Shown: piece by piece, positions 13,869-44,103 of the stretch
Position numbering within the stretch: the first letter of the stretch is position 1
Layout: each line of letters starts with the position of its first letter
IMG/VR virus record: IMGVR_UViG_3300009158_000035
Location: 1-64,000 of that record
Length of the DNA stretch: 64,000 bases
Strand: one strand, 5' to 3'
DNA from: a virus
Notes under the pieces: generated by a model
What the model was told of the DNA's origin: nothing
Databases searched by the model: none
The model's input: only the letters and a program-made list of their open reading frames with translations
Translations under genes and position numbers: made by a program

Positions 13869-13905
13869 GCTCCATACGCTCCAGAACATTATAACTATAA
13901 ATTGG

Positions 13906-23352: not shown

Positions 23353-24045
23353 ATGGCTATAAGTAAACAAGAAAAAATAAATGAGTTGAAAACCTACTTC
23401 AAGAACATGAAGCTTGATGCAGGGGTCATGGGACGCACACTAGGCAATAGTATCAGCTATGTAACTCCTCAACTGATACTAGATGCGTCAAAAAAGCTAT
23501 TAAAAGTCTTTGGACGTCATGTAGAAGCAGACGATCGAGACAATGTAATTTTTTCTAAATTTCTAGGAGCAGAAGACTATCTGAAAGAGCATATCGACCA
23601 TGATGCAGGTAAGGTACAGTTTAAAGCTAAGAGCAAACTTAGGCAGAAAAGAAATCTTTCTTGGTTACATGCAGGGTTTTTTTCTCCCCAAGTAAAGAGT
23701 GTTTTTGTAGGAAACTCACTGGCTCAAAACATCGAAGGGGTTAATCCTATGGAGCAATATATGCTAGCCCACAAAGTAACCAAGATGGGGGCTGGAGGCA
23801 TAGGATCTACTGAGGCAATTCCAGATAGCTCTAGAGAGGTTAATGAATCTCAATTTGGTTTGTTGGACCCTATTCAAACTGTAGAAGCCACCACAATCGG
23901 TGTAGTAAATTTCTTTGTGAATAACATCCGTAAAGGAGACGACGGTAAGTTATACAGACAAGTGATAGATAACTCTACAGGAAAACCTGTATGGATTGAT
24001 CATCAGGAATTTTTAAGCTCTACAGTGGACGTACCAGAGCATTAG
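23353..24045 (+). CDS. RNA polymerase beta subunit, central fork / Rif-region fragment
   Basis: 230 aa. Residues ~130-200 align by eye to the bacterial beta fork region. VNPMEQYMLAHKVTKMGAGGI corresponds to the NPLSE.THKRR...GPGGL segment, and ESQFGLLDPIQTVEATTIGVVN to the THYGR.CPIETPEGPNIGLIN segment. Residues ~58-80 (DDRDNVIFSKFLGAEDYL) fit the preceding D-x-D-x-x-G-N-(K/R) region. It is a free-standing piece, since neither beta-N nor beta-C is attached. In the rifampicin-binding loop two residues are missing between the conserved HK and GAGG. It should pair with the products at 30147, 37672 and 42253. A TATACT box lies 24 nt upstream, inside the divergent neighbour. Confidence 0.82.
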   Translation: MAISKQEKINELKTYFKNMKLDAGVMGRTLGNSISYVTPQLILDASKKLLKVFGRHVEADDRDNVIFSKFLGAEDYLKEHIDHDAGKVQFKAKSKLRQKRNLSWLHAGFFSPQVKSVFVGNSLAQNIEGVNPMEQYMLAHKVTKMGAGGIGSTEAIPDSSREVNESQFGLLDPIQTVEATTIGVVNFFVNNIRKGDDGKLYRQVIDNSTGKPVWIDHQEFLSSTVDVPEH

Positions 24046-25052
24046 CTCAATGTGTAAGTACTGTTCCAGGTATCTATTGAAAATGCGGCCGTATTGTTCC
24101 CGGAAAACGAAAAATTTCTGGCATATACAAAATAGTAACACCAGCTACCCTTTCCAGACCACCAACCTGAAGGTACACCGAAAGATTTTTCGGTACCTCT
24201 AATCCAACTGGCGGAAGCATTGGGCTGCCTAATTCCATTAGGGTTATCATAACCTGTTAATGGTGCCGCTGTATAAAAAGCAGACCATATATTAAAATTT
24301 CCTAGGCTTGGGTTCCCATAGTTTCCTGCGTCGTGGCGCCAAATACCAGGTATGGTACCGTTCATGAATTGAACAGTTGGGTTATATTGTCGCCATAAGG
24401 CTACGTTTATATCCCATAGATAAGAGCAGCTGTAATTTGGGTACCCGCCTAATTGTACCTCTTTGTAAAGAGCAGCATCAGCAGTAAAAGCAAGATTGCC
24501 TGAATAACGCTCTGAGTCATAAAAAGTGCGTCCGTTTAACCATGTTATTGTCCAGGCCGGTGTGTAACCTGTAAATTTAATATATGTAGAATTATTTAGA
24601 AGAGAAGTTTGCATACAATCGCGATAGCCGTTACTCACCGCTTCGGCACCAGCGTATTGTCCAGCTACACTACTCAGGCGCGCCATAGCTGATAAGCCGC
24701 CGAGGTCGAATGTAGCCTGGATGCGTAGCCAAGTCGCAGGTATTACGGCAGCAGCTACAGTCAGTGTAAGTGTTTTTGTTCCTGTACCTCCATCATTTTT
24801 TGCAGATATTGTTATAGTGTACGTACCTGCTGTTGTAGGTGTTCCGCTAATAACTCCATTGGATGTGTTGATGTTCAGCCCTGCCGGTAAGCCTGTAGCA
24901 TTATAAGAAGTCGGACTGTTTGTTGCAGTTATGGTGTAAGAAAAAGCTTTTTTAGCTTCACCAGATGCACTTCCTGCGCTAGTGATTACAGGCGGATCTA
25001 TTTTTTTGCAATCACACTTACAGGAATTTCCGACTGCCGGTAGCTGAGGCAT
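24042..25052 (-). CDS. Ig-like domain surface protein (putative adhesin)
   Basis: 336 aa. After a short N-terminus with CKCDC, residues ~18-100 form an Ig-like (He_PIG/cadherin-like) domain: PPVITSAGSASG, ATGLPAGLNINTSNGVISG and TTAGTYTITISA. The C-terminal ~230 residues are rich in Trp, Tyr, Asn and Gly (RTFYDSERYSGN, WSAFYTAAPLTG), as expected for a receptor- or sugar-binding tip, but no named family is recognised. It follows the 988-aa fibre gene by 12 nt on the same strand and probably forms part of the same appendage. Its 3' end overlaps the convergent polymerase fragment by 4 bp. Confidence 0.65.
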   Translation of the reverse strand: MPQLPAVGNSCKCDCKKIDPPVITSAGSASGEAKKAFSYTITATNSPTSYNATGLPAGLNINTSNGVISGTPTTAGTYTITISAKNDGGTGTKTLTLTVAAAVIPATWLRIQATFDLGGLSAMARLSSVAGQYAGAEAVSNGYRDCMQTSLLNNSTYIKFTGYTPAWTITWLNGRTFYDSERYSGNLAFTADAALYKEVQLGGYPNYSCSYLWDINVALWRQYNPTVQFMNGTIPGIWRHDAGNYGNPSLGNFNIWSAFYTAAPLTGYDNPNGIRQPNASASWIRGTEKSFGVPSGWWSGKGSWCYYFVYARNFSFSGNNTAAFSIDTWNSTYTLS

Positions 25053-25064
25053 AAGCTTATTGTT

Positions 25065-28031
25065 TTAGTCGTGAGCCAATACGTATATAGTGGCGGTTGC
25101 ACCAGTAGATACGTTTGTACATACAGTTAGAGCTCTGAAATAGGCGTTATTAGCATTTTTGGGCTCAAGATATACGTTTTTACCGTTAATAGTTATCGTG
25201 CCGTGGGTCATCTGCGTATACGATATGTTACTGGTTTCTAATTTTAGTGTGTCTTTAGTTAGGGTACCTTTAGTACTGTCCTTCCCTACTTGCACCCACG
25301 TGCGTCCTAGAGAACCGTAATCGGTAGAGTCGGTACTTGAGGCTTTGTGTTCCCAAGGATTTTGGTACGTATAACATACACCACTGACAGATTTTATTTC
25401 GCCCGAAGCGAGATAGGAATAGTTGCTAGTGTCCTGTTGTACATATACGCTGCCTTCAGATAAATTAGCATATCTAATGTTATTGGCTGCTGTAACTCTG
25501 AACTCCCAGGGGTTGTGGTATGCTTGATGTGTTCCATTACCGTCAATTTTAACCGCTTTTATGTCGTACGGAGAAACATAGGAATATGTATTGTTGTCAG
25601 CCTGGATATATAGCGTGGTTGGCGTAATGCTTGAATATTTAAGATCTGACTCATTGGCAGAAAAATAGTTGTCTGCCATATATGTGTACGGGTAGCCTCC
25701 AGAGTGACCTCCAACATATACATTAGTAGGTGTTATGTTGGCAGCAGATGCTGCACCTAAACTATTTAGCCCATATACAGCCACCTGGTAGGGATCAACT
25801 CTGGTCCAAGTTTCGTTAGACGCCTTTATACCCATATAGTCAGGTTGCATCCAGGCTCCATGATTTACATCCGTCTCCACATAAAACCCTGTAGGGCGGA
25901 CTTTTGCGATTTGACCTGTACCTATGGTGTTAGTCATTAAACCGTAACTATCCATGTAGTTGTAATACGTGGGTGTATAGAGGTACGAGTAGTTGGGTGC
26001 GTGATTTGCGTAGGTTGTACCACTCGACACTAGACTAAGAATACTGCTGGTTAACTGCATATAGGTGGCCGAACCAACAAAAGGAGCCATAGTGAGTGCA
26101 TTGTCCTGCATCGCGGCGTAGTTGCCTGCACAAGAGTTAGCATACACACCTTCCGTATTAACAATGACATTGCTCAAGTCCGGAGCAGTGAACGAGAGCT
26201 GCTGCGCAGTTAGATTAAACTCATCGTTAAGTGCATCAGAGTAGCTCAATGAATGAGCGGTAGCATACATGAACGAGTTGGGCAGAGATGTATCGTCTAG
26301 TGTGAGTGACCCAGACTCTAGCTGAGCATTACGGTAGGCGTCAGCTACACGAATATCTGATGGATAGATCTGCGTATAGTTGTATGCATCTGAAGATATC
26401 TGGATAGATTTGGACTCTATGTTTACCTGAGCGCCGTTAATATCTAGGAATTGAAAATACCCGTTACAGAGGTCTAGTAGATTATCTGCATTGATCGTGC
26501 AGCATTGCGGAGCAACAAGTTTATTAACGCTGAGAGTGTTCAGTTCTAGGTCAGTATAAACAAAAGGTCGAACCTGCCCATCTGCCTGCTTATAGCTGCT
26601 CGAATCGCATACAAAACAAGGTTTCGGTATAGCTCCAGCGATGTATAAAGCTTCGCTGTACGGATCTTGATATAGGTATATACCGTCCGTATTTTCCTCC
26701 CACATACATCCATCCAGAACACCCGGAGTATAGTCGATAACTGCAGGGTATCCAGGAAGCTGGAGGTCAATAGAGTCCATCGAGATGGATAAGGTCGTAT
26801 TGCATCCTTCCTGATAGACTGTGCTACTACGTAAAGACAATGGTGCTGAAGAATATATCAATCCGGCACTAGCTGGTTGCCCTTGAGGCACACCTATCCT
26901 TAAGTTTATAAAACCTAGCTGTTGAGGGTCTGGAATGATGCTTACGTTTGCACTAGCACAAGCGTCAATACTGACTTCACCGTTGAGAGTAAACCCGCAG
27001 TCTGGAGTACTTTGCGATACGATTGATATTGGTGTAATCGTATTCACTACACCACTAGATGAAGTGATTTTAAAGTTGTTTACTGCTGTGAACGTGGCGC
27101 AAGCATCAATGACTACATCTCCAGATAATACCAGTCCGCAGTTAGGTTGTTCTGCAGCAACAACTTTAACCGAACTAGATTTCACTGCGGCGCCTAAAAA
27201 GTTAATTCCTCCTGTCGCTGTAAAGTCTGTACAGGCGTCAATGACTACGTCACCGGTCAGCACAAATCCGCAATTTGGTGTAGACTGAGGAGATATTTCA
27301 AAAATACTTCTTTTGACTGCTGCCCCAGTGATGGCAATATTCGATTGAGCGTTAAACGTTTCACACGCATCAATATTGAATGCGCCGGTCAGGTCGAAAC
27401 CACAATCTGGGATACTTCGAGAAACAAAGTTCAGATACGAGCCTTGCAGTGCTCCTCCGTATGTAATTTTTGAGGTAGCTGTAAAACTTTCGCAAGCGCT
27501 AATATCTATGTTACCTATAAGAGTGACTCCACAATGAGGAGCACTAGCTGCAGTTACTGCTAGAGAAGAACCTGCAGCTGCATTGCTGAAAGAAACTATA
27601 GAGTTGGCTGAAAAGTCACTACAGGCGGAAATATCTAAAATACCCACCAACTTTATTGTACAGTCGGCTGTACCGGTTTCAGATATAATAGGACCACTGG
27701 CAACGAGGCTTAATGAAGAATTTTTGGTAGCCTCTGTGGTTATAATATTTGAAGTAGCTGTTAGCGACTCACAAGCTTTATATGGTACAGGATTAGGGGG
27801 AGGAGGAGTTGGGGGAATTCCCAACACATCAGCAAAATTGTATGTACAAGATGGTTGAAGCGGTATCAGTGTCGCGCTGCCTGGAGTGTAATTTAATGCA
27901 GGCGGAAGATTACATGTAATTGGTAACGTGGCAGGATCGGTGGGAACGTAACTGGCGACATAAACATTGTCTATAGCTCCTCCAGCGTTCTTACCTAGAT
28001 GTACCGACGTAGGATCAATTTTTAGCGACAT
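25065..28031 (-). CDS. Large tail fibre/appendage protein with paired-cysteine repeats
   Basis: 988 aa. Residues ~85-400 contain about seven units of ~43 residues, each with two cysteines: I-D-A-C-x-x-F-x-A ... P-x-C-G-F-x-L-x-G-x-V. The second half (about 480-960) has looser Tyr-rich repeats (TYMQLTSSILSL, YSYLASGEIKS, YSYVSPYDIKA) like the beta-helical shaft of phage fibres. The C-terminus (TITINGKNVYLEP ... ATIYVLAHD) shows no chaperone domain. It lies in one minus-strand run between a small membrane protein (1-bp overlap) and the Ig-like protein. Fibre or adhesin is the best guess. Confidence 0.65.
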   Translation of the reverse strand: MSLKIDPTSVHLGKNAGGAIDNVYVASYVPTDPATLPITCNLPPALNYTPGSATLIPLQPSCTYNFADVLGIPPTPPPPNPVPYKACESLTATSNIITTEATKNSSLSLVASGPIISETGTADCTIKLVGILDISACSDFSANSIVSFSNAAAGSSLAVTAASAPHCGVTLIGNIDISACESFTATSKITYGGALQGSYLNFVSRSIPDCGFDLTGAFNIDACETFNAQSNIAITGAAVKRSIFEISPQSTPNCGFVLTGDVVIDACTDFTATGGINFLGAAVKSSSVKVVAAEQPNCGLVLSGDVVIDACATFTAVNNFKITSSSGVVNTITPISIVSQSTPDCGFTLNGEVSIDACASANVSIIPDPQQLGFINLRIGVPQGQPASAGLIYSSAPLSLRSSTVYQEGCNTTLSISMDSIDLQLPGYPAVIDYTPGVLDGCMWEENTDGIYLYQDPYSEALYIAGAIPKPCFVCDSSSYKQADGQVRPFVYTDLELNTLSVNKLVAPQCCTINADNLLDLCNGYFQFLDINGAQVNIESKSIQISSDAYNYTQIYPSDIRVADAYRNAQLESGSLTLDDTSLPNSFMYATAHSLSYSDALNDEFNLTAQQLSFTAPDLSNVIVNTEGVYANSCAGNYAAMQDNALTMAPFVGSATYMQLTSSILSLVSSGTTYANHAPNYSYLYTPTYYNYMDSYGLMTNTIGTGQIAKVRPTGFYVETDVNHGAWMQPDYMGIKASNETWTRVDPYQVAVYGLNSLGAASAANITPTNVYVGGHSGGYPYTYMADNYFSANESDLKYSSITPTTLYIQADNNTYSYVSPYDIKAVKIDGNGTHQAYHNPWEFRVTAANNIRYANLSEGSVYVQQDTSNYSYLASGEIKSVSGVCYTYQNPWEHKASSTDSTDYGSLGRTWVQVGKDSTKGTLTKDTLKLETSNISYTQMTHGTITINGKNVYLEPKNANNAYFRALTVCTNVSTGATATIYVLAHD

Positions 28032-28369
28032 TAAAGCATCTTATTAAATAACAAGTAAGAAAACAAGATCAAAGGAGCGCACAGCAACCCACTGAATGAG
28101 TCTATGTATAGTGCTGAGATAATGCCTGTCCAGAAACTTAAGCACATGGGACAGGTAACCAATCTTACAAAAAACTTATCCTTGTAGTATTCGTACAAAA
28201 AATCAGGATAGTTGCCGCTGTAGCCTTCACGATGAAGTTGATTGTACTCATCCAGGTGCAACCAATCATTCAACCTTAAAAGGTTCATATACTCTGCAAA
28301 GGCATCTGTCTTGAGCCATAAGAGCATAAGATAACCTACGATGAAAGCTACAGCGACAATCGTAAACAT
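28031..28369 (-). CDS. Small membrane protein with CPxC motif
   Basis: 112 aa. Hydrophobic segments lie at about 2-18, and at 78-108 as two closely spaced helices. TCPMCLSFWTG just before the second region recalls the C-x-x-C-L-x-F-W motif of DUF1360-like phage membrane proteins. Function unknown. The stop codon overlaps the start of the large fibre gene, so the two may be translationally coupled. Confidence 0.6.
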   Translation of the reverse strand: MFTIVAVAFIVGYLMLLWLKTDAFAEYMNLLRLNDWLHLDEYNQLHREGYSGNYPDFLYEYYKDKFFVRLVTCPMCLSFWTGIISALYIDSFSGLLCAPLILFSYLLFNKML

Positions 28370-28372
28370 AAG

Positions 28373-28630
28373 CTATTTAGTAGGAGGCTGCGTGTTTGAC
28401 AGCTCTATAATTTTGTTTTGAAGATCAGATAATAGGTTTCTTTGTGCAGTAGTAGCAACACGTAGCTGCTGCAGCTGATTGAGCTGTTCTGACAATTTCC
28501 TTACATTCTCTTCCTGCTCTTTCAGATTTTGCTCAGCCTGACGCAATCCGTCCGCAATGAGCAGCAAAGATACATGCGTATTCTCCGGGGCAGTTTCTGT
28601 CACAATAGGTAGTTCTACTCGGTTACTCAT
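28373..28630 (-). CDS. Small coiled-coil protein
   Basis: 85 aa. A long amphipathic helix (residues ~25-78: AEQNLKEQEENVRKLSEQL ... LLSDLQNKI) strongly suggests a coiled coil. Not recognised. It sits between a small membrane protein gene (3 nt) and another short helical gene. Confidence 0.6.
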   Translation of the reverse strand: MSNRVELPIVTETAPENTHVSLLLIADGLRQAEQNLKEQEENVRKLSEQLNQLQQLRVATTAQRNLLSDLQNKIIELSNTQPPTK

Positions 28631-28631
28631 A

Positions 28632-28799
28632 TTAGTTTAGTTCTTGGTTGTCGGTTAAAAGTTCTTTGATCTCGGCTTGAATCCGTTTCACTTCTTCGTT
28701 GTGTGCTTTTACAACGTCACGCTTGTTGCGTTTGGCAATCTCAAGTTCGATCACCAGGTTGTAGATCTTTTCTTCTTTAGATGGTTCTTGCTCAGACAT
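28632..28799 (-). CDS. Short helical protein (55 aa)
   Basis: The ATG is at 28797-28799 on the minus strand and the TAA at 28632-28634. The product is a highly charged helix (KEEKIYNLVIELEIAKRNK ... IQAEIKELLTDNQ), similar in character to the coiled-coil gene that follows one base after its stop. It fills an otherwise empty 300-nt gap and fits the tight spacing of this operon, so it is probably real. Function unknown. Confidence 0.55.
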   Translation of the reverse strand: MSEQEPSKEEKIYNLVIELEIAKRNKRDVVKAHNEEVKRIQAEIKELLTDNQELN

Positions 28800-28880
28800 A
28801 TATAGGGTTTCTAAAGACGCTTGTTGGCGTCAGGTATCCAATATACGCTGCAACCAAGATAAGGTGCAACGAATTTTTGC

Positions 28881-28915
28881 AAAAAAAGAGACGCACCCGG
28901 TTAAGGATGCGTCTC
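28881..28915 (-). terminator. Intrinsic terminator, minus strand
   Basis: An 11-bp stem (28888-28898 with 28905-28915) has one pair that is G-U only on the minus-strand RNA, followed there by seven T residues. It ends the gene at 28937. Confidence 0.85.
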
Positions 28916-28936
28916 GATTTTTAAACTAACCACTAA

Positions 28937-29608
28937 TTATGCAGAAACCTGCTCTTCAGCGATAGCGTCTGAAGCGCCGCCGCCAGTATTGGCGATGATC
29001 ACTTTGAGGAGTTCACCTTCACCAGACTCATAGGTACTGGGACCTACTCTACCTGTACCACGCACATATTCAATGATATAGCTGATCTTCGGAGGAGTAG
29101 TGTTCGCTCCAGTGGCGTCAGTCAGCCCCAATGTGAATGTTCCAGAGTTATCTGAACCAGGGTAGATATCGAGCACGGCAGGACCAGCGGCACCAGCATG
29201 GGCGACGATAGTAGCCCTGACGATGTCTTGGCTGGGCACTTCAGAAAACACAAGTGTGTCTCCGAAAGCATAGGAGGTGCCGAAAATATTACCGAGGGCA
29301 GCAGTCTGGGTATCGGCAGTCACGATGTTATAGGTTCCAGCTCCACCGGTGCCTGTTCCAAAAGAAACGACACGGGTAGTAGGTGTGACGTTTGTGCCGG
29401 AGATTACCGTGCCGATCTGGATGGACCCTGATGTGACTGTGGCTACCGTGAGAACGGTGCCTGCGATAGAGCCTGTTCCCGAAAAGCCTCTTTCGATTGA
29501 GCCGTAGCTCACCTGAAGCTTTTCATAGCGAGTGCTTTTGAGTCCTGCAACATCGGAAGAGGATGCGGACATTTTCTTGACGTATTTTGTAGTTACTGCT
29601 GTAGGCAT
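28937..29608 (-). CDS. Probable virion surface/decoration protein
   Basis: 223 aa. It has a central insert of the type common in phage surface proteins (GTVLTVATVTSGSIQIG, VISGTNVTPTTRVVSFGTG, GGAGTYNIVT) inside a beta-rich protein with YAFGDTLVFSEVP and LDIYPGSDNSGTFTLG. The N-terminus is short and basic. It is monocistronic, with its own terminator and an unusually long A/C-rich leader, which suggests strong expression as for a structural protein. I cannot say whether it decorates the head or belongs to the tail. The 141-nt leader region (29609-29749) holds no gene. Confidence 0.55.
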   Translation of the reverse strand: MPTAVTTKYVKKMSASSSDVAGLKSTRYEKLQVSYGSIERGFSGTGSIAGTVLTVATVTSGSIQIGTVISGTNVTPTTRVVSFGTGTGGAGTYNIVTADTQTAALGNIFGTSYAFGDTLVFSEVPSQDIVRATIVAHAGAAGPAVLDIYPGSDNSGTFTLGLTDATGANTTPPKISYIIEYVRGTGRVGPSTYESGEGELLKVIIANTGGGASDAIAEEQVSA

Positions 29609-29749
29609 ACTTTTGTTTTGTTTTGTTGTTTACTAAGTTACAAGGAAAGCCTGGGATGCAACAGAGACTTTTTAGTAAGTCTCCAGAGGATCGCTGATCT
29701 ACTCCATTGCTAGGCTAATAATCGCATAAAGTCCCAGACAAGGCAAGCG

Positions 29750-30154
29750 TCAAATCCATTCTGGGTAACATACTCTGTTTGGTCTGGGCTCAAGCCGATA
29801 GTCAATAAATAGCTCTTCATCTTTCTTTATGTCCCTGTTAGCGATAATTTTGTGAATGCTCAGCACCCAAGCACAGTTTGGTTCTCTGGAGTGATTGATA
29901 TAGCTGAATTTGCTCCATTTATCGCTAGCGATACATTCCTCATCGCTCAGCATCACGTACCAGTTTTTTCTAATTTGCTCTTCTGAGAGTTCTGTGAACA
30001 ATTTTTTCTTCCAGTCTCTAGGAAAAAGCCTGTAGTCAATGACTAGCTCATGCTTGATAAAGTCTTTTGCAGCAAAAAGCCCATAGCCCTCAACTGTGCT
30101 CTCCTTCACATATGTGTGAGGGGCGTCATCGTTATCTATAATGATCTCATTCAT
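29750..30154 (-). CDS. SET-domain protein (putative lysine methyltransferase)
   Basis: 134 aa from the ATG at 30154; a TTG six bases upstream is less likely. The whole protein is a minimal SET domain: VEGYGLFAAKDF at ~20-31, SYINHSREPNC at ~82-93 (the NHS/C AdoMet and substrate site) and IANRDIKKDEELFIDYR at ~103-119 (ELxxDY, catalytic Tyr). There is no pre- or post-SET zinc cluster apart from a C-terminal Cys. It should transfer methyl from S-adenosylmethionine to lysine in a protein. Its start lies inside the last codons of the RNA polymerase beta-N gene, so the two are coupled. The substrate is unknown. Confidence 0.85.
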   Translation of the reverse strand: MNEIIIDNDDAPHTYVKESTVEGYGLFAAKDFIKHELVIDYRLFPRDWKKKLFTELSEEQIRKNWYVMLSDEECIASDKWSKFSYINHSREPNCAWVLSIHKIIANRDIKKDEELFIDYRLEPRPNRVCYPEWI

Positions 30155-30812
30155 CGCCAATTAGGATTGTGTAAAGTTTGTCGATCTCGTCTCCCTTGTA
30201 TTGTGTCCGATTAGCGTTCAGTATCTGCTCACCCCACGCGTCTTTTAATGCGGCATCAGTTATACCCATATCCCTAAGGATGCCATATAATCGAACCTGA
30301 GAGTTACGCACCATTAGTACAAAAAGTTGCTTGTCAGGTAAGAAAAGAATTCTGCCCGACTGCCCTGTACGTGCTTCAGGATTGATGTGCGCTTCAGGTA
30401 TACCGTCTTGACGAATTCTTGAATAGATGCCAGGTAAAAGCCGCTGCTGATTTACTGCCTCATATTCAGAACCATTATAGATAACAGTATTATGATTAGT
30501 AACATACGGAATGTGAGCTATCGTAGTGTGTTTAGATTCAACTACTTTACCTGAAGCCTTGTGTATTAGCTCTACTGTACCTTTCAGTGGAGCAGTCAAA
30601 TCCTTCTTCTCAAGCACCAGCTTTTTTTGCATTGTAGATGTGACATGAGGGATGTCCATCTTCAGGTTTTTGACACTGAGTTTATAGTCCTGAGTCTCGA
30701 TCGAATTGATCTTCTTACCGAAAGAATCGACAGCCGTATTGAATAGCATGTGCCGCAGTTTTTCAGGATCGAAAAACGCGCGAGTATTTTTAGGAGGCTC
30801 GGACTGATGCAT
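30147..30812 (-). CDS. RNA polymerase beta subunit, N-terminal fragment
   Basis: 221 aa. IPYVTNHNTVIYNGSEYEAV (about 108-127) followed by NQQRLLPGIYSRIRQDG matches the bacterial beta segment IPLMTDNGTFVINGTERV...QLxRSPGV. The preceding region (LEKKDLTAPLKG ... SKHTTIAHI) fits the protrusion, and the last ~60 residues (QVRLYGILRDMGITDAALKDAWG) fit the start of the lobe. The gene stops there; the next parts of beta are encoded at 23353 (+) and 37672 (+). It lies on the opposite strand to the other three pieces, in a cluster of small and virion-like genes. Its 3' end overlaps the SET-domain gene by 8 bp. Confidence 0.82.
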   Translation of the reverse strand: MHQSEPPKNTRAFFDPEKLRHMLFNTAVDSFGKKINSIETQDYKLSVKNLKMDIPHVTSTMQKKLVLEKKDLTAPLKGTVELIHKASGKVVESKHTTIAHIPYVTNHNTVIYNGSEYEAVNQQRLLPGIYSRIRQDGIPEAHINPEARTGQSGRILFLPDKQLFVLMVRNSQVRLYGILRDMGITDAALKDAWGEQILNANRTQYKGDEIDKLYTILIGDE

Positions 30813-31020: not shown

Positions 31021-31067
31021 AATTAGTCCTACCCTAATAGTCTACCGCTAGCAAAGCAAGCAAAGAT

Positions 31068-31856: not shown

Positions 31857-31857
31857 G

Positions 31858-32958: not shown

Positions 32959-32962
32959 TGCG

Positions 32963-33719: not shown

Positions 33720-33720
33720 A

Positions 33721-34122: not shown

Positions 34123-34123
34123 A

Positions 34124-34936: not shown

Positions 34937-34937
34937 A

Positions 34938-35777: not shown

Positions 35778-37155
35778 AGCTAGGTAGAGTATTTTTAGCC
35801 TCTAGGATAGATGGTTCTACAACTGTAGAAGCAGCCACACTATGGGCATAGTTCTTGACTTTTAATTTTTCTTTCTTGATTGTAGTGGTTTTTTTAGCTT
35901 TTGACAATAGTGGATGTAGGTAATTGCTAGTCTCGTCCTTTCTAGGGATGTGACTTGATCTGAATCTGGCGATTCCTCTTCTTCCAGCTCCACCCTCCTC
36001 GCCCCTGAAGAACCAGATCAGGTTTCTATAGGCTTCTACTGTGGCTTTGTTGAGCTCTCGTACGTTGTCTTCTCTGATTTCACGCATATACTGGTCAGCT
36101 AGACTGTATGCGCGATGGAAGTACTCGAAGCTTCTTTCTATCTCAGAATACTTTCTGGCTACAGATGGAAGCATCTCTCCGTCTACAGACAGCTTGTGGG
36201 TGCTCCAGTTTCTGTCAGCTAGCTCTAGATTGATAGATTCCTCTAGACTCTCTACAAAGCGCTGGCTTTCCTCGATAGCATATCTGTCTGCTTTCACAAA
36301 GAAGAGTACATGGGTATGAGGCCGGTACACACTGTCGAGGATAGAATCTACACTGATTTCATGACTGTAGGCATAGCTCATGATCTTGCGCCTTTTGTTG
36401 GCTAGCTTGCTCAGGAACTCTGTGTTCTTGCGAAAGAAGCTGTGGATAGCTTCCTTGGTTTTGTGAGGGTCAATATCCAGAGCTAGAGAGTTCTTGGGAG
36501 TGATTACAGCCTGATAGGCAACAAAGCCTAGTTTGAAGAGATGAGCAGGAGAGAACTCTTTGTCGAACTTCTTGTATGCCCTGAGAGCTGTTTTAGCGTC
36601 TACAGTACGGTTGTGCAGGCAGGACCTTGAATAGCCCTTGTTGGGGCTTTTAGGATCTGGAGACTTGAGATTAGAGCGAACACTCTCACCGCCGTTGTTT
36701 ACAATGTTGTCCATGTCACAGCCTATATGAAGCAAGAGATGAGATTCTAGATTTCGTTTTTTCAGACCAAACCTGTTAGCGTTAGCATGGTCACTCAGAA
36801 CCAGAGAGCGAATAGAGACCTGAGACTCTTTATCTAGGAGATTCCAGTGCATCGTATAGTCTTCGATGCTAGTCCAGTTAATGTCATATCTAGAGACAAC
36901 CTTCCTAGAGGAGCGAACACTACAAGCAGCATTGTATAGGTCACTAGAGTGAGAGTTAAACTTCTCTATGAGACTGTCAGAGGGAGCAGGTACAGTTTTC
37001 GCATAGGTATAGTCGTAGTCAAAAGAGTCAGGAGTGAGAGAGACATCATGAGCCTCAGTTTCAGCAGAAGAGAAGCTATAGGAGTCGTCAATGCTTGCGC
37101 AGCTTATGAGAGCGTCTACATCTGCGCTGGAGATTCTAGCCTTTGGAATGATCAT
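35521..37155 (-). CDS. Putative HUH-type replication initiator (Rep_1-like), odd 3' end
   Basis: 544 aa as an open frame. Residues ~210-330 resemble Rep_1-type rolling-circle initiators. LGFVAYQAVITPKNS could be motif 1. MSYAYSHEIS ... YRPHTHVLFFV (about 265-290) fits the Y-H-P-H-x-H-V-L motif with the HUH metal-binding histidines. Candidate Tyr residues follow (FEYFHRAYSLADQYM, about 345-360). The last ~85 codons overlap the next gene and encode an Arg-rich, unnatural-looking tail. In another frame a TAG lies 2 nt before that gene's ATG, so a frameshift or lost stop is likely and the true end may be near 35780. A DNA-nicking or replication role is tentative. Confidence 0.5.
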   Translation of the reverse strand: MIIPKARISSADVDALISCASIDDSYSFSSAETEAHDVSLTPDSFDYDYTYAKTVPAPSDSLIEKFNSHSSDLYNAACSVRSSRKVVSRYDINWTSIEDYTMHWNLLDKESQVSIRSLVLSDHANANRFGLKKRNLESHLLLHIGCDMDNIVNNGGESVRSNLKSPDPKSPNKGYSRSCLHNRTVDAKTALRAYKKFDKEFSPAHLFKLGFVAYQAVITPKNSLALDIDPHKTKEAIHSFFRKNTEFLSKLANKRRKIMSYAYSHEISVDSILDSVYRPHTHVLFFVKADRYAIEESQRFVESLEESINLELADRNWSTHKLSVDGEMLPSVARKYSEIERSFEYFHRAYSLADQYMREIREDNVRELNKATVEAYRNLIWFFRGEEGGAGRRGIARFRSSHIPRKDETSNYLHPLLSKAKKTTTIKKEKLKVKNYAHSVAASTVVEPSILEAKNTLPSYAKTERRASRAGKICIASRVSELLAPRTTQAGTRAWRRLPIQQRKNRRDHQQCRELREGCTGRGSVCLGRNRRRLAQRGSRSRLH

Positions 37156-37281
37156 GAGAACTATCTAGAGATGTACGATGGGGTAGGGAATGTCACGAGT
37201 AAAGATGAGAATGAGTTGGGGAGTTTTGGAGGACTATCAACTAAATACAGGCCTAGCGCACCCCACCATCTCTGGGAGGTG

Positions 37282-37310
37282 TTGCCAAGCCTCTGAAACC
37301 CAGGTATAAT
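37282..37310 (+). promoter_or_regulatory. Sigma70-like promoter, predicted leaderless transcript
   Basis: TTGCCA (37282-37287), 17 bp, then TATAAT (37305-37310). The ATG at 37318 is 7 nt after the -10 box, the normal distance to the transcription start. Confidence 0.7.
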
Positions 37311-37317
37311 GTTTTTT

Positions 37318-37617
37318 ATGAGCGCAAAGGCCCTAAAGCAGATCAAGACCATTACCATCAGAGGAAAGAGGTATAACTTTGTGGTTACTCGCCTCAAAGG
37401 AGCGCGTGGGATGTGCGAGCATCCTGAAACCAAGAATAAGACCGTCTATATCGACGAGAGGGAAAAAGGCAAAGAGCTGCTATCTACCCTCATCGACGAG
37501 TTCATTCATTGCGCACTGTGGGAAATACAGAACGACGTCGTGGATGAGATCTCCGACGACATGGCTGAAGCTTTGTGGAGATGCGGGCTACGCTTCCAGG
37601 ATGAGTCAGACTCTTAA
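37318..37617 (+). CDS. Zincin-like protein with altered HExxH motif
   Basis: 99 aa from the ATG at 37318. The ATG at 37309 overlaps the promoter -10 box and is rejected as a start. LLSTLIDEFIHCALWEIQND (about 57-76) and MAEALWRCGLRF recall a small phage/bacterial family with (H)ExxH-A-x-x-W and A-x-x-L-W-R-x-G. Here the first His of HExxH is Asp, so classical zinc-protease activity is doubtful. It lies just upstream of the RNA polymerase fusion gene and divergent from the Rep-like gene. Function unknown. Confidence 0.6.
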   Translation: MSAKALKQIKTITIRGKRYNFVVTRLKGARGMCEHPETKNKTVYIDEREKGKELLSTLIDEFIHCALWEIQNDVVDEISDDMAEALWRCGLRFQDESDS

Positions 37618-37671
37618 CAGATCTGAATAAGCAGATTGATATTTTTTATCTCGTGCCGTACGATCACTTCT

Positions 37672-40665
37672 ATGTCTACCCAAGGTCACAAATATATACT
37701 TCAGCACGGTAAGCTGACCAAAGTCCCAGCATCTACAAAGGCTAAGTACAGAATTCCTGATCCTTCAGAGTTTTTCAGTCCTGTTACAAATCTAATCCCT
37801 GGGCTCAGCTCTGTGTCGGGTTCCCGTGTACTAATTGGCGACAAATCTTCATTGCAGGCCATGACTCTTGTGAACAGGGAGGCTCCACTTGTTCAGTCTT
37901 CTGCCAAAGGAAGCAAGCAGAGCTTCAACGAATCTTTCGGTAAGCTGGTCAGCCTTTCTGCCAAAACAACAGGTACAGTACATCACATTAGTGACGATTC
38001 GCTGATAATTAAGGATGCTGACGGAAAAGAGCATCATCACGATCTCTACAGTAACTACATTATTGGCAGAGAGAGTTATCTCCACCATACACCGACAGTA
38101 AAAGTAGGAGATAAGGTAAAGACAGGACAGTTGCTGGCTACTTCAAACTATTCAGACCACAAAGGTTCTTTAAGTCTTGGAATGAACCTCAAAACGGCGA
38201 TTATGCCTTTCAGATCTTTAAACTTTGAAGATTCTCTGGCAATTTCCGAATCTGCAGCAAAAAAGCTAGAGGGAGAGCAGTTGATACCTGTGAGAATGGA
38301 GGTTGCCCGTGGAGTGATTGTCGACAAGGATAAGTATGTATCACTGTTCCCAAACAAGTACTATAATGATCAGCTGGTCAGCGTAGATTCGGCAGGTGTA
38401 GCCAAAAAAGGAACTATTTTAAAGCACGGAGACCCTGTCATTCTGGCTTTTCAGCCAAAGACACTTAAATCGGTAGATATCCAGCTAGGTAAGCTGGCAA
38501 AGGTAATTCGTAATGCATTTTCGGATGTATCCATCCCCTGGGAGTATGAATATGATGGAGAGGTAACGGATGTATCTAACTCAGGTAAGCTGATTGCTGT
38601 TACTGTTAAAACAAAAAGACCGATGAGCTTCGGAGATAAGCTTAATATGCCTTTCGGTGCAAAAGGTGTCGTACATATCATTCCAGATACTCACATGCCT
38701 CAAGGAGAGGACGGTAAGCCCATAGATGTAATGCTTAATTCGATGAGTGTTACATCTCGTGTAGCTCCAGGATTGGTTAACACTATCGGACTAGGCAAAC
38801 TCGCTCAAAAGCTAGGCAAACCTCTTAAGATGACAGGGTTCACAGAAGGTTCAGCCGTACAGAAAGTCATAGATATTCTCGATAAGCACGGAGTCAAAGA
38901 TACAGAAAAACTCTATGACCCTCAATCAGGTAAGCATATCGATGTTTTGACAGGCCCTTTATATTTTAACCGGCTACATCATATAGCAGAAGACAAAGTA
39001 TCTACGAGGTCTGCAGCCACTACGTACGATATTAATATGCAGCCGAGCAAGGCAGGCTCTCACGAAAAAGCTAAGCGTGTCGGTAATCTAGCTACCACAG
39101 TGGCATTATCTAATGATGCTACAGCTGTGCTACGAGATATTGCCACAGTACGGGCTACAAAGAATGACGAGTATTGGACTGCTTTAAAACTAGGTCAGCC
39201 TCCTCCTCCCCCTAAAGTGCCGTTTATCTTTGGAAAATTTATAGGTCACCTTAAAGGGGCAGGTGTAAATGTGCAGCAAGAAGGTTCTAAATTCCATATT
39301 CTACCTCAGACAGACAAAGACATTGTAGCTATGTCTCGAGGAGAAATTAAAGAACCTCTCAGCTATAAAATCAAAAAAGATGAGCTAGTTCCAGAAGACA
39401 ACGGACTATTTGACCCTACCCTTGTAGGTATTCATGGCGACCATTACAATCATGTGGCATTACACCATAGGATCCCAAATCCTATGGTTGAAGATCATTT
39501 GCGTAAATTACTTAACATGACAAAAGTCGCTTTCGAGGAAGCTATTGCCTCAGGCAAACTTGAGAAAGAAATTAAACGTATAGATATCGATCATAAGATT
39601 ACAGAGCTTAAGAATTTGGTAAAATCTAAACGCAAGACAGGGAGAGACAACGCACTTAAAAGTCTGAGCTTCCTTACAATGCTTAAGAGCAATAATCTTA
39701 AGCTAGATGACATACTGTTGTCTAACATCCCGGTCATTCCTGCCCAATATCGCCCTGTCATGGTTCAGGGAGATCAGGCATTAACTGCAGATGTTAATGA
39801 GCTGTATAAAGATCTTATGCTTGTTAACAACTCGCTAGGACAGGCAAAAGACAATCCAGACACTGATCCGGAGCATTTACACACCGCAAGAAAACAAATC
39901 TATAACGGGCTTAAGGCTGTGTATGGTCTCGGCGGTCCCATCAAACAGAAAAGTATTGAGAAAAAATATAAAGGGTTGCTTGCTTCGGCTCTAGGCCTTC
40001 AAGGCGGATCAGCGAAAGAGTCTATGTTCCAGGCGAAGGTTGTTAACAAACCTATTGACCTGGTAGGTAGAGCTGTATTGTTACCTGACGCTAAACTAGA
40101 TCTTAATCAGGCAAGTATTCCTCAGCCGCTGGCCTGGAATATCTTTGGACCGTTCATTATTCGTCGACTTGTGCGCCAAGGAGTACCTGCCACAAAAGCT
40201 AGAGAATATCTCGAGAAAAAGCATCCGTTAGCCTTGACTGCTCTACATCTAGAGATGGAAGATCGGCCGGGTATCGTGACTAGAGATCCACAGCTATCAA
40301 AATACAATTTTCAGGGAATGTACCTGAAGATGAACCCAGATCCCAAGGACTTCTCTATAAAGATGAGTCCACTAGTGTTTAAAGGTTATGGAGCAGACTC
40401 TGACGGAGACCAGCTCAATGTGCAGCTCCCGGCTACGGATGAAGCCAAGGAGGAAATTAAAGAGAAATTGCTGCCCGAGAAAAACCTAATCTATCACAGG
40501 ACTTTTGGTCCGATGTATACCCCATCAAACGAATCTGCGACCGGATTGTTTGCAGCTAGTTTCGAAGACAAGAAAAATACTCCCAAGAAATATTCTTCGG
40601 CTCAAGAAGTTGTGAAAGATTTTTTAGCGGGAAAGCTTGATGTTGGCGATCGGGTGGATGTATAA
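37672..40665 (+). CDS. RNA polymerase beta (C-terminal part) - beta' (N-terminal part) fusion
   Basis: 997 aa from the ATG at 37672; an in-frame TTG 36 nt earlier is less likely. Beta part: NLIPGLSSVSGSRVLIG near the start, MNLKTAIMPFRSLNFEDSLA (~175), GDKLNMPFGAKGVVHIIPD (~321) and RLHHIAEDKVSTRS (~433). Beta' part: MSRGEIKEPLSYKIKK ... NGLFDPTLVG (~553), VIPAQYRPV (~688), GRAVLLPDAKL (~798) and the catalytic loop GADSDGDQLNV (~906) with the three Mg-binding aspartates of DxDGD. The N-terminal beta' zinc domain, expected right after FDPTLVG, is absent. The remaining pieces are at 30147, 23353 and 42253. It ends just after LIYHRTFGPMYTPSNES, the point where beta' resumes in the 42253 gene. 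Confidence 0.92.
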   Translation: MSTQGHKYILQHGKLTKVPASTKAKYRIPDPSEFFSPVTNLIPGLSSVSGSRVLIGDKSSLQAMTLVNREAPLVQSSAKGSKQSFNESFGKLVSLSAKTTGTVHHISDDSLIIKDADGKEHHHDLYSNYIIGRESYLHHTPTVKVGDKVKTGQLLATSNYSDHKGSLSLGMNLKTAIMPFRSLNFEDSLAISESAAKKLEGEQLIPVRMEVARGVIVDKDKYVSLFPNKYYNDQLVSVDSAGVAKKGTILKHGDPVILAFQPKTLKSVDIQLGKLAKVIRNAFSDVSIPWEYEYDGEVTDVSNSGKLIAVTVKTKRPMSFGDKLNMPFGAKGVVHIIPDTHMPQGEDGKPIDVMLNSMSVTSRVAPGLVNTIGLGKLAQKLGKPLKMTGFTEGSAVQKVIDILDKHGVKDTEKLYDPQSGKHIDVLTGPLYFNRLHHIAEDKVSTRSAATTYDINMQPSKAGSHEKAKRVGNLATTVALSNDATAVLRDIATVRATKNDEYWTALKLGQPPPPPKVPFIFGKFIGHLKGAGVNVQQEGSKFHILPQTDKDIVAMSRGEIKEPLSYKIKKDELVPEDNGLFDPTLVGIHGDHYNHVALHHRIPNPMVEDHLRKLLNMTKVAFEEAIASGKLEKEIKRIDIDHKITELKNLVKSKRKTGRDNALKSLSFLTMLKSNNLKLDDILLSNIPVIPAQYRPVMVQGDQALTADVNELYKDLMLVNNSLGQAKDNPDTDPEHLHTARKQIYNGLKAVYGLGGPIKQKSIEKKYKGLLASALGLQGGSAKESMFQAKVVNKPIDLVGRAVLLPDAKLDLNQASIPQPLAWNIFGPFIIRRLVRQGVPATKAREYLEKKHPLALTALHLEMEDRPGIVTRDPQLSKYNFQGMYLKMNPDPKDFSIKMSPLVFKGYGADSDGDQLNVQLPATDEAKEEIKEKLLPEKNLIYHRTFGPMYTPSNESATGLFAASFEDKKNTPKKYSSAQEVVKDFLAGKLDVGDRVDV

Positions 40666-40672
40666 GTATTAG

Positions 40673-40693
40673 TTGTGCGGAGCAGGCGCACAA
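40673..40693 (+). terminator. Short hairpin after the polymerase fusion gene
   Basis: TTGTGCG/CGCACAA (40673-40679 with 40687-40693) has a 7-nt loop and no strong T-run. It could be a weak terminator, an RNA-processing site or chance. Confidence 0.3.
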
Positions 40694-40725
40694 TAATAAT
40701 CTTTATTCTTACCTAGGTTTGCGTT

Positions 40726-40926
40726 ATGCTTGATGAAAATATATGGCTGCAGTTGAGTGAAAATGAAAAGCTTGATGAGTTGCAGATGTACTTAAATACG
40801 TTTATCGCTATTGAAAAAGGCCGTCATGAACTTAGTAACACCGCAGCACAAGGCAAACTGTCTACTATAAGAAAAGACTTACGTGAAAAAATTTTTAAGA
40901 TAATTGAACTGGAGAACGCTACATGA
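40726..40926 (+). CDS. Small helical protein
   Basis: 66 aa: WLQLSENEKLDELQMYLNTF, then a basic helix KLSTIRKDLREKIFKII. Not recognised. The stop overlaps the start of the Gln-rich gene (ATGA), so the two are coupled. It lies between two RNA polymerase genes; an accessory role is possible but there is no sequence evidence. Confidence 0.6.
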   Translation: MLDENIWLQLSENEKLDELQMYLNTFIAIEKGRHELSNTAAQGKLSTIRKDLREKIFKIIELENAT

Positions 40927-41813
40927 AAATTGCCGAACTAATCGAAAACTATAACAATATCACTAAAAAGGCTTCTAAGCCGGTGGTAAAAAAAGCATTT
41001 GTGCCTAATCCTGATGCCATGGCTCAACAGCAACAGGCTCAGCAACAGGGCGCACCTCAACAGCAGCAAGCTCAACCGCAAGCAGCAGCTGCACCAGCAC
41101 AACCGCCTCAAGCTGCACAGGCTCCGCAGCAAGCGCAGCAGCCTGCAGGTCAAGATCTGATGAGTCAAGTTATGGCTGAGGCGCAAAATCTTCCTCCTGA
41201 AGTTCAGCAGCAGATTGCTCCCACTCTGCAGCAGCTACAGAATCTGCCCCCTGACCAGCAGCAGCAGCAATTGATGGCCTTGATGCAGCAGATACAGGCA
41301 CAAGAAGCCCAAATGGCTCAGCAGGGAGGAGCACCGCAAGGACAACCTCAGCCGCAGCAGGGAATGCCTCAGCAAGGAGGGATGGTTGCGCAGGCATCTA
41401 CTGAAGAAGATTTATATGCAGCTTTACAGGGTGGAGGTGGAGGATATTCCCCAGAAATGATGGGCGGCGGAGAAGGTATGCCTCAGCAGCCACAGGAGTC
41501 TGCACAGCAGGGGCAAGACGCGACGCAAGAAGACGCTTCTCAAGCGGAAGCTTCGGCCATCGAAGCAAAGAATGAGCTGGATAACGTTAAGGTTACATTA
41601 ACTGTTCGCGAGCTGCTAGACCTTGTAGGTAAGGGCACAGCTACAGCCTCTTTGTTGAAGGTTAAACAATTAGCGGACACTCATAAGCAGAAAATGGATC
41701 AGAGTAAGCAGAAAGCAGACGCTGCCCAGCAGCAGGCGCAACAACAGCAGCAAACTGATCAGCAAGGCATGATGGGTGGAGGAGGCATATACCCTACCCC
41801 AATGGGCTCATAA
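40923..41813 (+). CDS. Gln/Pro-rich protein
   Basis: 296 aa. The N-terminal ~35 residues (IAELIENYNNITKKASKPV) are helical and basic. Residues ~35-205 are low-complexity Gln/Ala/Pro/Gly with short helices (LPPEVQQQIAPTLQQLQ; LPPDQQQQQLMALMQQ). Residues ~210-275 form a charged helix (VKVTLTVRELLDLVGKG, KVKQLADTHKQKMDQ), and the C-terminus is Gly-rich. Disordered Gln-rich proteins occur among phage scaffold and head-core proteins; here it is encoded between RNA polymerase genes. Function unknown. Confidence 0.6.
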   Translation: MKIAELIENYNNITKKASKPVVKKAFVPNPDAMAQQQQAQQQGAPQQQQAQPQAAAAPAQPPQAAQAPQQAQQPAGQDLMSQVMAEAQNLPPEVQQQIAPTLQQLQNLPPDQQQQQLMALMQQIQAQEAQMAQQGGAPQGQPQPQQGMPQQGGMVAQASTEEDLYAALQGGGGGYSPEMMGGGEGMPQQPQESAQQGQDATQEDASQAEASAIEAKNELDNVKVTLTVRELLDLVGKGTATASLLKVKQLADTHKQKMDQSKQKADAAQQQAQQQQQTDQQGMMGGGGIYPTPMGS

Positions 41814-41824
41814 TCTTTAATTGT

Positions 41825-42253
41825 ATGCCGGACTTTACAAAACTAGCATCCTACTTGGATTCCTTCGCTCGCGAGGATGAAAATTATGATCTTGCCTGTT
41901 TTATCAAATCAAAGATAGCTGAGGATTTTTCAGATCCCCGAACAATCAATAACTCCGAGGATGAGGAGCTTGGTGATAACGATATTACTATGGCTACCCC
42001 CGACCAACAAGCTGAGTCTAATACTGAGGGAGAATTGATGGGTGATGCGTTTAAGGAATTTGATGCACTGAATAAGATGCAGAAAGAAAAAGAAGAAATA
42101 GTCCTTCCTAACAAACAACAGGACACTAAGAAACTTTCTCTAGATGCCGCAGACTCTAAAGACTTTCCTGGAGTGGGCCAGGTGCATAACCAGGTAAGTA
42201 AGACTGCTCAAGTATCGTTGTTTGATGTACTTCAAAACCGGCTTAAAAGATAA
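41825..42253 (+). CDS. Acidic hypothetical protein
   Basis: 142 aa. The helical N-terminus (FTKLASYLDSFAREDENYDLA) resembles the start of other virion-like proteins here. An acidic, probably disordered middle and a basic C-terminus (VSKTAQVSLFDVLQNRLKR) follow. The stop and the next start share bases (TAATG), so it is coupled to the beta' C-terminal gene. It might be a small partner of the polymerase; this is inferred from position only. Confidence 0.55.
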   Translation: MPDFTKLASYLDSFAREDENYDLACFIKSKIAEDFSDPRTINNSEDEELGDNDITMATPDQQAESNTEGELMGDAFKEFDALNKMQKEKEEIVLPNKQQDTKKLSLDAADSKDFPGVGQVHNQVSKTAQVSLFDVLQNRLKR

Positions 42254-44103
42254 TGGCAACCACGACTGTTGGAAGAGTCTTATTGAAATTCTTCATACCT
42301 CATCAATTTCATGAGCTTGTTGATGGGGCTATGCTTGACGGGAAAGGCATATCCAAGTTGTTTGCCGAGCTGGCTGAAAAGGCTCCAAACGAATACAGTA
42401 AGATAGCATCTGATCTGACAAGGCTAGGTTTTGAAATATCCACCAGACAGGGTACATCTATAACGCTCAAGGATCTGATATCCCCGATAGACAAGAACAA
42501 GCTATGGGATAATTTTGAGAAATTTAAAACCACAGTAGAATCTTCCAACGATTCTCAGGCTCTAAAAGATAAGCAGATTTTTGATCATTACAATAACATG
42601 ATGTCTAGTATTGAACGAGACATCCTGGATAAAGGACTCAAGGATAATAAATCTTTGGCTAAGATTATTCTGGCAGGTTCCCGAGGCTCCCCTGCACAGT
42701 ATAGGGGCACTATAGCTACGCAAGGTATAGTTGTCGATGCGTCAGGTAAGCCCAAGATGGATATACCTATCAAGAGCTCTTTCGCAGAAGGCCTAACTCT
42801 TCCTGAATATTTGACTACAGCCTACGGTACTAGATCTGGAGAGGTACTGAAGAAAATTTCGGTAGCTCAAGGAGGTTACGGATCAAAACAGTTTGCTAGA
42901 GCGCTAATGCCTTTGCAGATCGTTGAAGCTGACTGCGAAACTTTGAACGGTATAGATATCCCTATAAGTGATCGTGAGTCTATAGGAGCGTATCTAGCCA
43001 AAACTGTGGGCGGACACAACCGTAACAATGAGGTTACCGCAAAGATGTTGGCAGACCTTAAAAACAAAGGAGTGTCCCACATATTCATACGTTCTCCGAT
43101 GACGTGTCAGTCAAATAAAAAGCATCATTCCGGCGGATTATGTCAGATGTGTGTAGGTAAGCGTGAAAAGGGTATGGCTGCGATGGACAGTTATATAGGT
43201 CTAGTTGCAGGTACGGCTGTGGCAGAACCTCTCACAGAAAGCGCCATGAAAGCTAGGCATTCTGGAGGGGCAGCAACCAGTCTAGGGGGTCAGCAGGGCT
43301 TTAAGCTTATTAATCAGCTTGCGAATGTACCCAAAACATTCATAGGTAGAGCGCCTCTAGCTCAGGAAGATGGTTTTGTCACCAAGCTTGCGCCAGCAGC
43401 TGCAGGTGGACATTTTATTTCGGTAAACGACCATGAACATTACATAGGTATAGATCAAACTCCTACTGTGAAACTGGGTGACCGTGTAGAGCAAGGACAA
43501 GTACTCAGTTCTGGTCTAGTAGACCCTAGAGAAGTGGTAAAGTACCGTGGAATTGGTGATGGAAGGAAGTATTATATGGAGGCTATGAAGAAAGCTTTCG
43601 ACGATAGCAAACTTCCAGTCAACAGGCGTAATTTTGAATTGATAGCTAAGGCAGCTATCGATCATGTAAAGATCACCGACCCTGAAGGAATGGGTGACTA
43701 TCTCCCCGACCAGGTAGTATCCTATTCAGCGATAGAAAAAGACTATGTACCTAGACCTGCGGCAAAGATGCTTAGGCTTGATCTGGCATATGGTAAATAT
43801 CTAGAAAAGCCCGAACTTCACTACACTATAGGTACAAAGGTCACCTCAGCCGTCATCTCGGAGCTTAAAAAGCATAATATCGAAGCTGTGCTTGTTCATG
43901 ACGAGCATCCTAATTTTGAGCCTGTGATGGTGCGTCTTGTAGATATTCCAGAGCACCATGACGATTGGATGCATGTTTTAAACAGCACCAATCTAGCCAA
44001 ACGTTTCGTTAATATGGTTAATAAAGGCGCTACATCAGACTTAAAAGGCGCCAGTCCCATTCCAGGACTAGCGTATGGTGTAGGTTTTGGAGAAAAGAGT
44101 TAA
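42253..44103 (+). CDS. RNA polymerase beta' subunit, C-terminal fragment
   Basis: 616 aa. It opens with TTVGRVLLKFFIP, matching the beta' TTxGRxxF segment just after the active-site domain. AGSRGSPAQYRG (~140) and SFAEGLTLPEYL (~178) are the bridge-helix region. The zinc site has DCETLNGI (Cys ~227) and C-x11-C-x2-C (~286, 298, 301), with a longer first loop than bacterial beta'. The trigger loop is PLTESAMKARHSGGAA (~327-342) with the conserved His. The C-terminal part (MVNKGATSDLKGASPIPGLAYGVG) corresponds to the end of beta'. With the three other fragments it would complete a catalytic core. No sigma or alpha is encoded nearby. Confidence 0.9.
   Translation: MATTTVGRVLLKFFIPHQFHELVDGAMLDGKGISKLFAELAEKAPNEYSKIASDLTRLGFEISTRQGTSITLKDLISPIDKNKLWDNFEKFKTTVESSNDSQALKDKQIFDHYNNMMSSIERDILDKGLKDNKSLAKIILAGSRGSPAQYRGTIATQGIVVDASGKPKMDIPIKSSFAEGLTLPEYLTTAYGTRSGEVLKKISVAQGGYGSKQFARALMPLQIVEADCETLNGIDIPISDRESIGAYLAKTVGGHNRNNEVTAKMLADLKNKGVSHIFIRSPMTCQSNKKHHSGGLCQMCVGKREKGMAAMDSYIGLVAGTAVAEPLTESAMKARHSGGAATSLGGQQGFKLINQLANVPKTFIGRAPLAQEDGFVTKLAPAAAGGHFISVNDHEHYIGIDQTPTVKLGDRVEQGQVLSSGLVDPREVVKYRGIGDGRKYYMEAMKKAFDDSKLPVNRRNFELIAKAAIDHVKITDPEGMGDYLPDQVVSYSAIEKDYVPRPAAKMLRLDLAYGKYLEKPELHYTIGTKVTSAVISELKKHNIEAVLVHDEHPNFEPVMVRLVDIPEHHDDWMHVLNSTNLAKRFVNMVNKGATSDLKGASPIPGLAYGVGFGEKS

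Follow-up and report, generated by a model that had tools for sequence, protein, structure and literature searches.

Does the RNA polymerase (RNAP) locus of the virus record IMGVR_UViG_3300009158_000035 encode a single enzyme and, if so, how did it come to be divided among four genes? The DNA analysed, referred to here as the window, comprises bases 1-64000 of this linear record of 167,754 bp, which is itself incomplete. An initial annotation, made from the sequence alone, had described a multisubunit RNAP split into four polypeptides with a beta-beta' fusion, and we found all four open reading frames (ORFs) at the coordinates it gave. Together they are one cell-type RNAP core, covered once and without overlap, in which the catalytic residues are intact.

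The four chains and the core they cover

The beta-N chain (221 amino acids (aa); 30147-30812, minus strand) holds the protrusion and the first part of the lobe, whilst the beta fork chain (230 aa; 23353-24045, plus strand) holds the second half of the lobe and protrusion together with the fork. The third chain, of 997 aa (37672-40665, plus strand), fuses betaC to beta'N, with the beta part at about 37672-39288, the beta' part at about 39289-40662 and the catalytic DxDGD motif, in the context GADSDGD, at 40396-40410. Its ATG start is at 37672; the frame opens earlier, with a TTG at 37636, and related chains begin where the window's ATG stands. The beta'C chain (616 aa; 42253-44103, plus strand) carries the funnel, bridge helix, trigger loop, zinc site and C-terminal clamp.

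These identities, first read by eye, are borne out by Pfam, PHROG, family profiles compared with chains in the Protein Data Bank (PDB) and alignment to an uncut homolog. In Pfam, the fork chain matches Rpb2_3 (1.6e-5), the fused chain Rpb2_6 (1.4e-43), Rpb1_1 (2.7e-10) and Rpb1_2 (1.6e-12), and the beta'C chain Rpb1_5 (2.4e-13), the last also matching phrog_25354 (1.8e-32) in PHROG. The beta-N chain has no RNAP match in Pfam; a profile of this chain and its relatives matches RNAP beta chains in the PDB (1.7e-11), and gp206, the uncut homolog in the cultured Salmonella phage Arash, aligns with it at the N-terminal end. The fused-chain profile matches beta over residues 13-534 and then beta' over residues 541-996 in the PDB. 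An AlphaFold2 model of this chain has a predicted local distance difference test score (pLDDT) of 86.9 and a predicted template modelling score of 0.77; its top Foldseek matches, which concern the beta half only, are RNAP beta chains, with that half matching Thermus RNAP beta at 4.7e-37.

The pieces had also been said to cover the core once each, and we looked for overlapping RpoB/RpoC coverage and found none. On Arash gp206 (1525 aa), beta-N spans residues 36-222, the fork chain 231-469 and the fused chain 483-1517. On PHROG profiles the spans are likewise without overlap, both for beta (84-147, 461-535 and 618-1139) and for beta' (151-539 and 617-1104). In a joint alignment the fork chain corresponds to E. 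coli beta ~375-621, and the cuts map close to positions 229-375 and 621/622 of E. coli beta and 550/551 of beta'. The first of these stretches is a region of lineage-specific insertion. Within the 997-aa chain, beta gives way to beta' at residue ~539/540, the point where the end of E. coli beta meets the start of beta'.

Features of a cell-type RNAP are present throughout, namely both double-psi barrels with DxDGD and two lysines, the bridge helix and the trigger loop. D909, D911 and D913 of the fused chain correspond to E. coli beta' D460, D462 and D464 and are invariant in the family alignment. Also kept are beta E813, D814, K1065, K1073 and R1106, and beta' R425 and P427 (E. coli numbering), whilst the beta'C chain retains M932 and H936 of the trigger loop and the second zinc site (C814, C888, C895 and C898). 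The first zinc site is missing from every phage form aligned.

Three short ORFs (66, 296 and 142 aa; 40726-42253, plus strand) separate beta'N from beta'C, the two longer of which have no Pfam or PHROG match. A SET-domain ORF (8.8e-16; 29750-30160, minus strand) overlaps the end of the beta-N gene by 14 bases. Elsewhere in the record, at 117687-120380, an 897-aa protein combines a uracil-DNA-glycosylase domain with a DNA polymerase A domain.

One enzyme, its probable sigma factor and the virion

An Rpb1_2 search found one RNAP active-site locus per genome in 9/9 phage records, this one among them. The alpha D-domain (PF01193) was detected in none of the same nine, in a search that was positive in 13 of 14 control genomes; omega was not searched for. 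Since the present record is incomplete, the absence from it of alpha and of a second RNAP set is provisional.

Outside the window, at record positions 74260-74892 and within a cluster of virion genes, lies a gene for a 210-aa sigma70-family protein, the ortholog of Arash gp10. It matches Sigma70_r3 above the curated cut-off, and its family profile matches PDB sigma chains (4.4e-10). Foldseek matches to its model are, at the top, mostly sigma chains of RNAP entries, but confidence in that model is low (pLDDT 69.5) and the sigma call therefore rests on the sequence profiles. Promoter recognition is most likely the task of this dedicated protein.

The Arash genes gp206 and gp216 (OQ632216; PMC10585845) and their homologs in Vibrio phages D69, D181 and D148 belong to the same family, their fused chains being 31-33% identical to that of the window over 91-97%. 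Fusion of beta to beta'N, a separate beta'C and the gp10 ortholog are common to both, as are capsid, terminase, portal and tail genes; a homolog of the Arash major capsid protein gp226 lies at 57296-58270 (plus strand; phmmer 8e-31). Mass spectrometry detected gp206, gp216 and the sigma protein gp10 in Arash virions (PMC10585845). Moreover, gp218 is in the Arash virion mass spectrometry list, and its homolog (44180-46429, plus strand; phmmer 3e-15) follows beta'C here as it does in relatives, the product matching that of a two-chain relative at 5e-61. By analogy, the phage of the window probably carries its RNAP and sigma factor in the virion.

A rival reading is that this RNAP is absent from the virion and is produced in the infected cell to transcribe late genes, and that the sigma protein serves the host enzyme. 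Many phages do encode sigma factors for the host RNAP (PMC7824862), and packaging is known from Arash alone, at ~33% identity. Against this, the sigma gene sits among virion genes and occurs together with the RNAP in 26 of the 27 records searched, which include one-, two- and four-chain phages, and strong INPHARED matches to Arash gp10 are confined to phages with this RNAP. We consider a purely post-infection enzyme rather unlikely, though the most probable of the rival readings.

Related polymerases with one to four chains

The four-piece layout recurs in relatives. A separate fork ORF (69-87% identical) was found in 11 of 13 IMG/VR relatives, as was a separate beta-N ORF on the opposite strand, the identities of the two pieces together ranging over 57-87%; the same separate pieces also occur in relatives at about 40-50% identity. 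Four records lacked a piece in these searches. In three of these (G001, G013 and G015) the locus is close to a contig end, whilst in the 127-kb record G019 the fork was not found, without explanation. The scaffold RXKB01000001 (226,528 bp, with an 86-bp terminal repeat) repeats the four-piece arrangement, with order and strands unchanged, and matches 76 ORFs of the present record. Since the same separate ORFs occur in independent contigs, the pieces are not assembly breaks.

RXKB01000001.1 is a terminally redundant phage scaffold filed in a metagenome-assembled genome of Candidatus Dependentiae. A Dependentiae host, as the bin of this sister phage would suggest, was not accepted, given a guanine-plus-cytosine content of 52% against 32% for the rpoB contig of the bin, and differing start-site signals. 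In the four-chain genome G000, Shine-Dalgarno-like motifs precede only 13% of ATG starts (78% in Arash) and T stands at -1 in 66%. Similar signals occur in most four-chain loci, with a weaker trend in two- and one-chain loci, and the pattern in the four-chain genomes is a possible host signature. Furthermore, the extended -10-like sequence TGGTATAAT is found between genes of G000 at 13902, 94207, 135892, 151360 and 162650, five occurrences against 0.1 expected, for a motif picked after inspection.

Other members of the family are less divided. Amongst sampled IMG/VR loci, which are partly redundant contigs, at least 87 have a single ORF of ~2,000 aa that encodes the entire core, and 49 have two ORFs, beta-beta'N and a separate beta'C, with betaN apart in a few. 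The scan for the single-chain form took further the best 80 of at least 536 relatives. Examples are L060 (8552-14632) and L059 (179-6265), and the single ORF of L060 (2026 aa) matches Rpb2_3, Rpb2_6, Rpb1_1, Rpb1_2 and Rpb1_5 in Pfam. NADFDGD is present in 83 of 90 single-ORF relatives, most of which are longer than 800 aa. The beta-beta' junction is real, but in one point the initial interpretation has to be amended: the fusion is no peculiarity of this phage, being general in the family, in Arash and D69 as in the 87 one-ORF loci.

We placed these forms in a tree of 59 rows, two of them cellular, from which the long-branched phiKZ/AR9 chains were left out. The four-chain forms make one clade (Shimodaira-Hasegawa-like approximate likelihood ratio test (SH-aLRT) 100), itself nested in a clade of 24 rows that also takes in two- and three-chain forms (support 100). 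All multi-chain forms group together (support 92) and the single-chain forms fall outside. Two of the four three-chain rows (L215 and L220) come from contigs that begin near the match and may be truncated two-chain forms. Because the four-chain forms are one clade, and because beta is unsplit in cells and in the other phage forms, save the few with betaN apart, the breaks in beta can be read as derived. On this reading, the derived feature is most simply the three-way split of beta in a single clade and not the beta-beta' fusion.

Arash itself differs in having an unbroken beta that runs on into beta'N, and in its use of Shine-Dalgarno starts, which the window's clade mostly does without. The virion and non-virion RNAPs of the phiKZ/AR9 type (PMC7598289, PMC9209446) likewise spread a cell-type RNAP without alpha over several chains, and split beta' after the catalytic barrel, as the window does at E. 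coli beta' ~550/551. However, their beta and beta' lie on separate chains, whereas betaC and beta'N are fused here; each phage has two RNAP sets, virion and non-virion, against one in this incomplete record; and they have no sigma factor recognisable from sequence, whereas the present record has a sigma70-family protein. The layout is thus unlike that of phiKZ and AR9, as the initial annotation held, but a three-way split of beta is not in itself unprecedented, since beta in three pieces is stated for virion RNAPs of the phiKZ group (PMC7824862).

The deep-branching metagenomic lineage to which the annotation alluded is mReC (Weinheimer & Aylward 2020, PMC7481178), whose metagenomic tailed-phage RNAPs form a clade apart from cellular enzymes. 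The phage RNAPs of our tree also stand apart from the cellular rows (SH-aLRT 100), of which there are only two. In contrast, mReC is defined by NADxDGD and by RpoB/RpoC hits of at least 800 aa, whereas the window has GADSDGD and beta pieces of 221, 230 and ~540 aa, and so falls outside that definition. The single-chain relatives appear to fall within it on motif and length. In that study beta and beta' are handled as a pair of subunits, and fused or fragmented mReC genes are not mentioned in the main text. The capsid profile PF07068, an mReC trait, matched none of 19 records and was silent in the control genomes as well. Two records filed as phage, OR844998 and OR846602, with adjacent full-length beta and beta', were rejected as mReC forms, since their beta resembles ordinary bacterial RpoB, and are treated as contaminants. 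MT836236, with apparent ordinary bacterial rpoB/rpoC, was set aside as a contaminant with less certainty. Lastly, the crAss-like/YonO single-chain RNAPs likewise hold both catalytic barrels in one polypeptide; crAssphage RNAP has no recognisable similarity to RpoB/RpoC models (PMC7481178), whereas the single-chain relative L060 matches the Rpb2 and Rpb1 families of Pfam directly.

Origin of the breaks

We propose that this DNA-dependent RNAP is encoded by a large tailed phage, and that the four chains, as complementary fragments of one core, would co-assemble without alpha or omega. The betaC-beta'N fusion holds both catalytic barrels, beta'C brings the bridge helix and trigger loop, and the fusion would partly replace alpha in holding beta and beta' together. 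In an ancestor beta and beta' would have been fused; beta'C would then have become separate in a larger clade, and the four-chain clade would have seen two breaks in the front part of beta and the inversion of its first piece. The dedicated sigma70-family protein would recognise promoters and, by analogy with Arash, RNAP and sigma carried in the virion would start early transcription. That the chains assemble and are active, that they work with this sigma protein and are packaged in virions, and in which order fusion and fission took place, is what we infer. Overall, one split, alpha-free and secondarily broken RNAP, virion-borne and with its own sigma factor, is the best explanation and in our judgement a likely one. 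That a widespread lineage of tailed phages has an alpha-free RNAP with its own virion-borne sigma70-type factor, and that this enzyme began as one RpoB-RpoC chain of ~2,000 aa, later divided stepwise into two and, in the window's clade, four functional pieces, seems to us an evenly balanced proposition.

Several observations weigh against this account. The window has G for N458 of NADFDGD, and TRDPQL for NRAPTL; given these variants, enzymatic activity of the four-piece RNAP is likely, judging from its sequence, but not certain. Rfam found no intron in the window, and none of the four ORFs has an intein domain in Pfam, so that the window itself gives no sign of what caused the splits. The authors of the Arash study note that virion RNAP and sigma could be carry-over (PMC10585845). 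The approximately unbiased test does not reject a topology in which every other phage form groups to the exclusion of the four-chain clade (p-AU 0.19), and the root is uncertain. Finally, the evidence is computational, with the fused chain modelled by itself.

Relatives do carry insertions in their RNAP genes. Vibrio phage D181 differs from the window in that its beta-beta'N gene is interrupted by a group I intron (L077 9048-9328; Rfam RF00028, 100.7 bits), which comes with an endonuclease gene and which the near-identical D69 lacks. The intron site was rejected as the window's split site, lying ~40-45 residues inside the betaC piece. By eye, intein-like insertions were seen in L053, L069, L070 and L072, at sites (those of L053 being in beta'C) in the fork, betaC, DFDGD and bridge-helix/trigger-loop regions. 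In the two scanned, L053 and L070, Intein_splicing is weak, below the curated cut-off, and LAGLIDADG is clear. A putative split intein stands at the catalytic motif in L053 (9992-14540), where the first half ends GYGAD/SIVDYIIYREKIN and a stop, and the second ORF has Intein_splicing and LAGLIDADG matches and ends GGYTKN/SDGDQL; L054, L071 and L073 have the same gene arrangement. Genes of T4-like phages have been split by the insertion of endonucleases and yet give working products (PMC2988022). Together with the inserts in relatives, this makes invasion by mobile elements a plausible route, by analogy, to the splits.

Could the split instead be primitive, phage RNAPs descending from a multi-piece enzyme older than the last universal common ancestor, with fused and unsplit forms arising later? 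Iyer et al. (2021, PMC7824862) put this forward for the phiKZ group, and the tree test above leaves room for it. However, the four-chain state is confined to one well-supported clade, the other phage forms in the tree have betaC-beta'N as one chain and nearly all have beta unsplit, and the intron and intein-like inserts of relatives speak for later breakage. As cellular beta and nearly all other phage beta are unsplit, breaks within one clade are the shorter account under any root, and we regard a primitive split as improbable.

Decay of an RNAP that no longer functions, or assembly error, is scarcely credible as the source of the pieces: the odd NRAPTL and NADFDGD variants and the scatter over two strands would fit, but the frames are open, the catalytic residues are kept, the identities hold at 57-87% in many independent contigs, and order and strand pattern are repeated in the terminally redundant 226-kb scaffold. 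That trans-splicing, at the RNA or the protein level, rejoins the pieces so that fewer chains result, as the putative split intein exactly at DxDGD in L053 and its like might suggest, is highly improbable given that each window piece has its own start and stop, that Rfam detected no intron in the window and that Pfam detected no intein domain in any of the four.

Secondary breakage of a virion-borne, alpha-free RNAP thus remains our preferred explanation, and the enzyme of the window is a fragmented member of a family of fused-RNAP phages. The one-ORF relatives point to a cell-type RNAP that is a single chain and has a sigma factor of its own, of which we found no description in the literature searched. 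Split phage RNAPs have been seen either as pre-cellular relics (Iyer et al. 2021, PMC7824862) or as products of gene fission (discussed in PMC7598289). With one-, two- and four-chain states side by side, and with intron and intein-like inserts in relatives, this question becomes testable, and the cultured two-chain relative Arash offers a laboratory entry point. If true, our account would provide a documented series from one to four chains in which the breaks are secondary, which suggests that split phage RNAPs need not be primitive.

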